A DNA stretch of 64,000 nt from Herpetosiphon aurantiacus DSM 785 (GTDB taxonomy: Bacteria > Chloroflexota > Chloroflexia > Chloroflexales > Herpetosiphonaceae): NCBI GenBank assembly GCA_000018565.1, contig CP000875.1, positions 1,999,199-2,063,198 on the forward strand. The letters run 5' to 3'. This document shows, in pieces, positions 58,640-63,997 of the stretch. Below the pieces are notes generated by a model, which had not been told where the DNA came from, did no database searches, and saw only the letters and a program-made list of their open reading frames with translations. The translations under genes and the position numbers were made by a program. Numbering within the stretch: position 1 is the first letter of the stretch; every line of letters starts with the position of its first letter.

Positions 58640-58711
58640 ACTACACTCCAAGCGCTAATTATCGGTTTATGCTATGCTTTAAGCTCTGTTGTAGGAGTGT
58701 AACATACCGGA

Positions 58712-59047
58712 ATGAAGTATCGGCTAGAAATTTTTGGGCGCTCAAGTGATGCCACCTGTGGCTATGGCTGAGGCCCGCGCATGCCTTCGTTGAAGGTCGC
58801 AAATACGGTGGCACTCTCATTAGCTCGCTTGGTCGGTGATCAAGTTCAGGTGATCTATTATGATCTCGATGATCCTGTAGTGCTGCACCAGCATGCCGAG
58901 CGAATTACCTACTTTGCTGAGGAAGCATGGCCTTACCCGCTAGCGTTATTTGATGATGAAATATTGTTTGTTGGCGGGCTGCAACCGCTGAAATTGCTAG
59001 CAGCGGTGGTCGAACAACTGCGCCGTCGTGGGCTAAATTTGGCCTAG
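58712..59047 (+). CDS. Thioredoxin-fold small protein with an in-frame TGA at the redox site (selenoprotein candidate or pseudogene)
   Basis: From ATG 58712 the frame reads MKYRLEIFGRSSDATCGYG, then TGA (58769-58771), then continues open as GPRMPSLKVANTVALSLARL to a stop at 59045-59047. The part before the TGA looks like the first strand and redox loop of a thioredoxin-like protein (YuzD-like). The part after shows VQVIYYDLDDP, a cis-Pro segment (AWPYPLALFDDEILFVGG) and the last helix, with no Cys at all. Starting at ATG 58781 (GAGG seven bases upstream) gives an 88-residue protein without first strand and redox residues. The TGA may encode selenocysteine, may be a nonsense mutation, or the short form may be the real product. 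No good ribosome site lies before 58712 (AGGAG is 14 bases away). Confidence 0.5.
58783..58797 (+). promoter_or_regulatory. Hairpin 11 bases after the in-frame TGA (SECIS-like candidate)
   Basis: GCCTTC pairs with GAAGGT (one G-U pair), loop GTT. The stem begins 11 bases after TGA and the loop 17 bases after it, with G first and U second in the loop. These values match those of the E. coli fdhF element, but the bulged U of the classical element is absent. Confidence 0.3.
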
Positions 59048-62914: not shown

Positions 62915-63997
62915 ATGGCTGAAGTGATTTTGCCAGGCACCTACATCACGGTGCGTGATGAGGGGCTGATTAGCGCAGGGCGCATCGCCTCGGGCTATAT
63001 TGGCATTGTTGGCACGGCAGCAAGTGGTCCAATCAATCAAGTGCAAATTTTGGGCAGTTTCAGCGAAGCGAAGGCGATTTTCGGAGTCAGCGATGCTTGG
63101 CAAGGCGGCACAAAAAACGAGTTAACCCTCATTCGGGCCTTGGAACAGATTTATAACAACGGCGGCAAAACGGTCTATGCAGTGCGCAGCGAAGGCGTAA
63201 CAGTTGATAATTATAAAACTGCCCTCGCTGAATTGGAAAATGAAATCGTTAATTTGGTGTTATTGGCTGGTCAAGATAGCTCAAATGTGGGCATGGCCAA
63301 TGCTTTAATCGCGCACCTCACCACCACCGCAGGCATCAAACGCGAACGCATCGGCTTGATCGGTAGTGCGCTTGGCGATGATATCGCTAAAATCTCTGGT
63401 CATAGCTATGCCAGCGATCGCTTAATTTTCGTCGCACCTGGGATCAAAAGCTCAGTCAGCGATCCAGCGACCCAAACCGTCAGTCAAGTTTCCTTGCCTG
63501 GTAGTTATTTGGCCGCTGCGGTGGCTGGCTTGATCGCCGCCTTACCAGTGCAATCCAGCCCAACCAACAAAACTGTGGCAATTGAAGGTTTGACCACCAA
63601 CTTTAGCGCCTCGCAACTTGAACAATTGGTGCAAAAACGGGTGCTCGTGGTCGAAAAACGCGAAGGCTGGCGGGTGGTCAAAGGCATTACCACCGCCACC
63701 AACTCGGCTTGGCATCAAATTACCACCCGCCGTATCGTTGATTATGCAATTTATGGCGTGCGCTCAGCTTGTAATCCCTACATCGGCAAACTGAATAACG
63801 ACCGAGTACGCGGCGCAATGAAAGCGACGCTTGATGCCTTTTTGACCCGTATGGTCGAAGATGAGGCCTTGGTTGGCTATTCGTTGGATGTTTCAGCCAC
63901 TCGCGCTCAGCAAATTGCTGGCGAAGTGCAAGTGTCGCTCACGTTGCAACCAACCTTCAGTATCGATTTCATCTTAGTAACGATGTATTTGGGTTAG
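62915..63997 (+). CDS. Contractile tail sheath protein (phage tail/injection system)
   Basis: 360 residues, complete. The N-terminus LPGTYITVRDEGLISAGRIA, then GYIGIVGTAASGPINQVQIL followed by GSFSEAKAIFG is the typical start of phage and extracellular injection system sheaths. The C-terminal region RRIVDYAIYGVRSACNPYIG and the last domain LTLQPTFSIDFILVTMYLG carry the conserved sheath core with the mixed sheet linking subunits. Sheaths polymerise around the inner tube and contract to drive it through a membrane. The short length (no extra outer domain) fits small Afp/PVC-like sheaths. GGGAGG precedes the ATG and its own promoter is visible. The gene ends three bases before the right edge, so tube and baseplate genes are expected beyond it. 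Confidence 0.9.
   Translation: MAEVILPGTYITVRDEGLISAGRIASGYIGIVGTAASGPINQVQILGSFSEAKAIFGVSDAWQGGTKNELTLIRALEQIYNNGGKTVYAVRSEGVTVDNYKTALAELENEIVNLVLLAGQDSSNVGMANALIAHLTTTAGIKRERIGLIGSALGDDIAKISGHSYASDRLIFVAPGIKSSVSDPATQTVSQVSLPGSYLAAAVAGLIAALPVQSSPTNKTVAIEGLTTNFSASQLEQLVQKRVLVVEKREGWRVVKGITTATNSAWHQITTRRIVDYAIYGVRSACNPYIGKLNNDRVRGAMKATLDAFLTRMVEDEALVGYSLDVSATRAQQIAGEVQVSLTLQPTFSIDFILVTMYLG

Follow-up and report, generated by a model that had tools for sequence, protein, structure and literature searches.

Bacterial selenoproteins are often lost in annotation because their UGA codons are called as stops. A 2026 catalogue lists 119 prokaryotic selenoprotein families and describes the bSECIS element that follows the UGA as a loop of 3–9 nt on a stem of 4–16 bp, 16–37 nt from the UGA, with a G within the first two loop positions and an MFE of at most −7.5 (PMC13188914). 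The DUF1462 (YuzD) family, PF07315, has already been assigned to the thioredoxin clan (PMC3091736). A DUF1462 selenoprotein is absent from the 119 catalogued families, and the open-access papers searched contained none joining DUF1462/PF07315 with selenoproteins. Here we describe a gene from a 64,000-nucleotide stretch (the window; positions 1,999,199–2,063,198 of contig CP000875.1) of the 6.8 Mb genome of Herpetosiphon aurantiacus DSM 785, a gliding soil bacterium of the Chloroflexota. The gene very probably encodes a genuine selenoprotein whose family is undescribed and distantly related to DUF1462. None of the NCBIfam selenoprotein models matches any member of this family.

Results

Reading frame and conservation of the UGA codon

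The frame opens at ATG 58712, runs through MKYRLEIFGRSSDATCGYG, a TGA at 58769–58771 and 91 further codons, and closes at TAG 59045–59047 (Table 1). A first-pass annotation, made from the letters and a list of open reading frames, had placed these boundaries exactly to the base, and its reading of the 91 codons as free of Cys is confirmed. Its remark that a good ribosome site is missing also holds, with a GGAG placed 14 nt 5′ of the ATG. In G001 and the sister genus G007, the gene overlaps the stop of the upstream gene (ATGA, GTGA), and translational coupling there may account for the missing ribosome sites.

Table 1 Features of the predicted selenoprotein gene in window coordinates.
Feature	Position	Strand	Basis
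Predicted selenoprotein gene, 111 residues + stop (MKYRLEIFGRSSDATCGYG-U-GPRMPS...NLA)	58712..59047	+	Translation with TGA as U; TGA-bearing orthologues; dN/dS
UGA codon for predicted selenocysteine, residue 20	58769..58771	+	Invariant in close family; 12 class members and 5 deeper relatives
Cys16 codon, candidate resolving thiol (CxxxU)	58757..58759	+	Alignment; absent in two deeper members (RHGU)
Pro76 codon, invariant	58937..58939	+	Alignment column; usual cis-Pro position of thioredoxin folds, cis geometry presumed
bSECIS-like element: core hairpin 58783–58797 (GCCUUC/GUU/GAAGGU) and lower GCG/CGC helix	58777..58800	+	MFE −9.4; conservation; wobble freeze
Possible −10 box TATGCT, weak	58673..58678	+	Read from sequence, putative; TATACT at a similar place in relatives

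Homologues were found in 12 of the 158 genomes of the class, the window genome counted, and all 12 carry TGA at this position, in a search whose query held Cys there and was thus biased towards Cys homologues. Six are Herpetosiphon genomes (relatives 77–82% identical to the window copy), three represent other genera of the family (49–53%), and three belong to another family of the same order; the closest named relatives are contigs of Herpetosiphon geysericola and H. llansteffanensis, at 81% identity. TGA stands at the same place in five genomes from other Chloroflexota orders (G265, G184, G230, G278 and G237), and Cys replaces it only in one distant homologue (KCAGCCG, G453). TAA, TAG and sense codons other than Cys were not seen at this position in any member. 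The first-pass annotation had looked to Cys or TGA in relatives as the mark of a selenoprotein and to frameshifts as the mark of decay; the close orthologues keep the TGA in frame, and both Herpetosiphon and the three sister genera are free of frameshifts.

Purifying selection on the codons past the TGA is strong. The six Herpetosiphon copies give a dS of ~0.4–2.9 and a dN/dS of 0.04–0.16 for this part, and their 108 variable columns are distributed over codon positions 1, 2 and 3 as 19, 17 and 72. In an alignment of 17 rows, which include L046 and L047 from a more distant thioredoxin family, the only invariant columns are Met1, the Sec/Cys column, Pro76 and Gly88. L019 and L020 have no Cys ahead of Sec, so Sec looks essential and Cys16 would be an optional resolving thiol. 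The UGA and an 8-bp hairpin are kept in a copy with a truncated C-terminus (L021, 82 residues, from the nearly complete genome G009). A DUF1462-like copy in G278 (L065, about 230–300) likewise has the UGA and an intact hairpin, with a 1-base shift after UGP that is either an assembly error or decay. In plasmids, the window protein as query gave no match, and the deeper relative L041 matched only a Listeria Cys protein.

Selenocysteine machinery

The window genome holds a tRNA-Sec with anticodon UCA (62.6 bits against a cut-off of 47) together with selA, selB and selD, so that the machinery named as a check by the first-pass annotation is complete. SelD is itself a selenoprotein here: an in-frame TGA interrupts selD at ASCAG-U-AAK, the usual Sec place of SelD, and the loop of its hairpin (AGGU) also begins 17 nt past the UGA. 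Sec decoding is therefore present in this genome, with selD as an internal positive control. In G184 (88% complete) selA was not seen. Co-occurrence with selA is uninformative, since 320 of 400 Chloroflexota genomes have the gene over the cut-off.

A hairpin follows the UGA

The hairpin GCCTTC/GTT/GAAGGT, reported by the first-pass annotation 11 bases past the TGA with a loop led by G and then U, is found at 58783–58797. With a GUU loop beginning 17 nt past the UGA, a stem of 6 bp and an MFE of −9.4, it lies within all of the published bSECIS limits. Within the window, both strands counted, an equally strong hairpin in the right place follows 165 of 2271 TGA triplets; after 66 of the 2271 the frame stays open for 91 codons or longer, and four triplets have both. 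Judged by the window alone, a TGA with such a hairpin and open frame is not extraordinary and not rare enough to convince; the case rises far above chance because the arrangement is conserved in relatives, not through window statistics.

All six stem pairs form in each of the 12 close members; L017 carries one compensatory change (U-A to C-G), and two pairs are altered on one side only. Covariation is limited, as a single pair is changed on both sides and 40 of 500 shuffles score equally high. In the WSQ group the stem is of another type (UGGUCUC/AGGNN/GAGAUCA), and L076 shows a third (AAUCUC/AGGAG/GAGAUU), both at a nearly equal distance from the UGA. The MFE of the 42-nt region, compared with synonymous shuffles, is not exceptional in most members, and a positional hairpin test was used instead. 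Under synonymous shuffling, the lineages are each modestly unusual (0.007–0.09) and give a combined p of ~6e-5, for a criterion that was partly chosen after the hairpins had been seen. The synonymous (wobble) sites of codons within the hairpin are frozen in Herpetosiphon: among amino-acid-invariant codons, 1 of 7 just past the UGA shows a synonymous change vs 48 of 62 elsewhere (p = 0.0018).

Fold and family

The AlphaFold model of the window protein has a thioredoxin fold (pLDDT 89.5, pTM 0.83), to which the first beta strand (LEIFG) and the active-site loop, both conserved, belong; Pro76 directly precedes the strand at 77–80. Two structure-comparison programs return the same top PDB match, the DUF1462 protein 1xg8 (S. 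aureus SA0798/SA0789), with a Foldseek E of 7.7e-5 and, in the second program, a Z of 9.6 over 101 residues at an rmsd of 3.4. In a global MAFFT alignment, the UGA falls on the second Cys of the 1xg8 motif CASC, in agreement with the first-pass annotation, which had set the TGA where redox proteins keep their second Cys. The Cys form L045 also aligns its Cys with the Sec.

Profile comparison with DUF1462 (hhalign) gives an E of 3.7e-6 and covers only the part past the redox site. The window protein scores 17.6 bits against PF07315, under the gathering cut-off of 25, and is accordingly filed as a distant relative of DUF1462 rather than a member; the cut-off is exceeded by the deeper Sec relatives L041 (42.9 bits), L042 (33.0) and L044 (29.1).

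Gene neighbourhood

In the window genome the gene stands alone, and the redox neighbours of its deeper relatives are not adjacent to it in Herpetosiphon. Elsewhere in the window, an ORF at 62915–63997 resembles by eye a contractile tail sheath protein (MAEVILPGTYITVRDEG...). In deeper Chloroflexota, a thioredoxin reductase (TIGR01292, over the NCBIfam cut-off) lies directly 3′ of the gene in G265 and G184, and a TrxR-like reductase lies near it in G237. A Sec-containing protein disulfide oxidoreductase (PDO, TIGR02187), a known Sec family, is clustered with the DUF1462-like gene in G184 (L061:2400-3157, minus strand) and G230 (L062:5897-6700, plus strand); its in-frame UGA stands at FVTPT-U-PYCP (UPYC).

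Further in-frame UGA codons were seen at these and other loci. Just upstream of the DUF1462-like gene, G265, G184 and G230 (L064, L061 and L062) each have an FmdB-family Zn-ribbon gene that ends in CAPRVGGG, CAPTGGG or CVPAPSGGG, then UGA, G(F/I) and a stop, with a hairpin at +18/19 in all three genomes; a C-terminal Sec is possible in these proteins. In G237 (L076), a tiny membrane ORF ending in GGGG-UGA-KV-stop lies 3′ of the DUF1462-like gene and is followed by the TrxR-like reductase. Directly after an ACR3 arsenite transporter, G252 and G185 (L046 and L047) have a further likely selenoprotein, a short thioredoxin-like ORF that contains SC-UGA-GPKGQSSE and a hairpin of 8 bp. Finally, a DUF1462/ArsD-like ORF in G230 (L050/L077, G230:C145) is preceded in frame by QSCG-UGA-GSSCGPSCGSDC and is possibly a further selenoprotein.

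Discussion

The first-pass annotation had raised a possible undescribed selenoprotein, and the conserved UGA, the coding constraint downstream of it, the hairpin and the Sec machinery speak for that reading. It had also set beside it a pseudogene and a start at ATG 58781, both of which fall away. In favour of a Cys codon (TGC/TGT) that turned to TGA in a decaying gene are the weak ribosome site and a frame that is intact but for one stop. Yet all six Herpetosiphon genomes, and relatives with as little as about 25–35% identity, have TGA here and in no case TAA or TAG. The frame past it is under strong purifying selection, and the low dN/dS with variation at third positions excludes a pseudogene, which we hold to be extremely improbable.

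A pair of separate products, with a 19-residue peptide up to the TGA and an independent protein begun at ATG 58781, is barely more credible. Herpetosiphon and the sister genera do retain that ATG, but other members have no Met24 (QVPS, RVPS, HLPS, RWSQ); other genera have Val, Leu or Trp in its place, so it is not a start codon. Orthologues do not begin there, and the conserved N-terminal strand LEIFG and active-site loop precede it in the predicted fold. Readthrough of the UGA by another route, such as Trp insertion or general suppression, would conserve the open frame equally well, but TGA terminates 12 of the 55 ORFs of the window, the full Sec machinery is present, and the position is that of a Cys of CxxC in a homologue, with a bSECIS-like hairpin following it. 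We give this route next to no chance, and all three alternatives are rejected.

As a selenoprotein, the window protein would be made by SelB and tRNA-Sec decoding UGA codon 20 as selenocysteine, guided by the hairpin directly downstream. It would act as a thioredoxin-fold selenol/thiol oxidoreductase. The attacking residue would be Sec20, immediately ahead of the long active-site helix; Pro76 would occupy the cis-Pro place, and Cys16 (CxxxU), where present, would probably resolve the selenenylsulfide. The gene lies beside thioredoxin reductase in deeper relatives, which makes the thioredoxin reductase system the most likely source of reduction; an oxidoreductase fed by this reductase is, on balance, the role and reductant that we favour. 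More tentatively, Chloroflexota might possess an undescribed electron relay of several selenoproteins, to which the DUF1462-like one would belong. The deeper lineages cluster DUF1462-U with thioredoxin reductase, Sec-PDO and an FmdB-like protein (C-terminal UGA); in Herpetosiphon, DUF1462-U alone is present and would draw electrons from the general thioredoxin system.

The window thus adds a predicted selenoprotein missed by both NCBIfam and the 2026 catalogue. The uncharacterised DUF1462/YuzD superfamily gains a sign of a catalytic residue: Sec has evolved at precisely the site of one Cys, and this favours a redox role for the entire family. Neighbouring genes suggest the reductant, and the prediction is testable in a culturable organism, Herpetosiphon.

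Among described systems, DUF1462/YuzD (PF07315; S. aureus 1xg8 and the Listeria CASCVGAPSS protein) shares the thioredoxin-like fold and the C-terminal part with the window protein, whereas the window family has Sec for the second Cys and a CxxxU or CxxxxU spacing rather than CxxC. ArsD arsenic metallochaperones (PF06953) have a related thioredoxin-like fold (Foldseek ranks 3–7), and membership was considered because of this similarity; it was rejected. The window protein has no vicinal Cys pair, and the ArsD profile was matched only weakly, by single members. Classical thioredoxin (PF00085) has CxxC in contrast to the CxxxU seen here, and a Thioredoxin match is absent at E up to 10. The thioredoxin-like selenoproteins already described (Sec.1/Sec.2 of PF13192, SaoT, the HUIPC family and Sec-thioredoxin) also combine a thioredoxin fold, Sec at the redox site and a bSECIS past the UGA (PMC13188914), but their families and motifs differ from those of the window protein.
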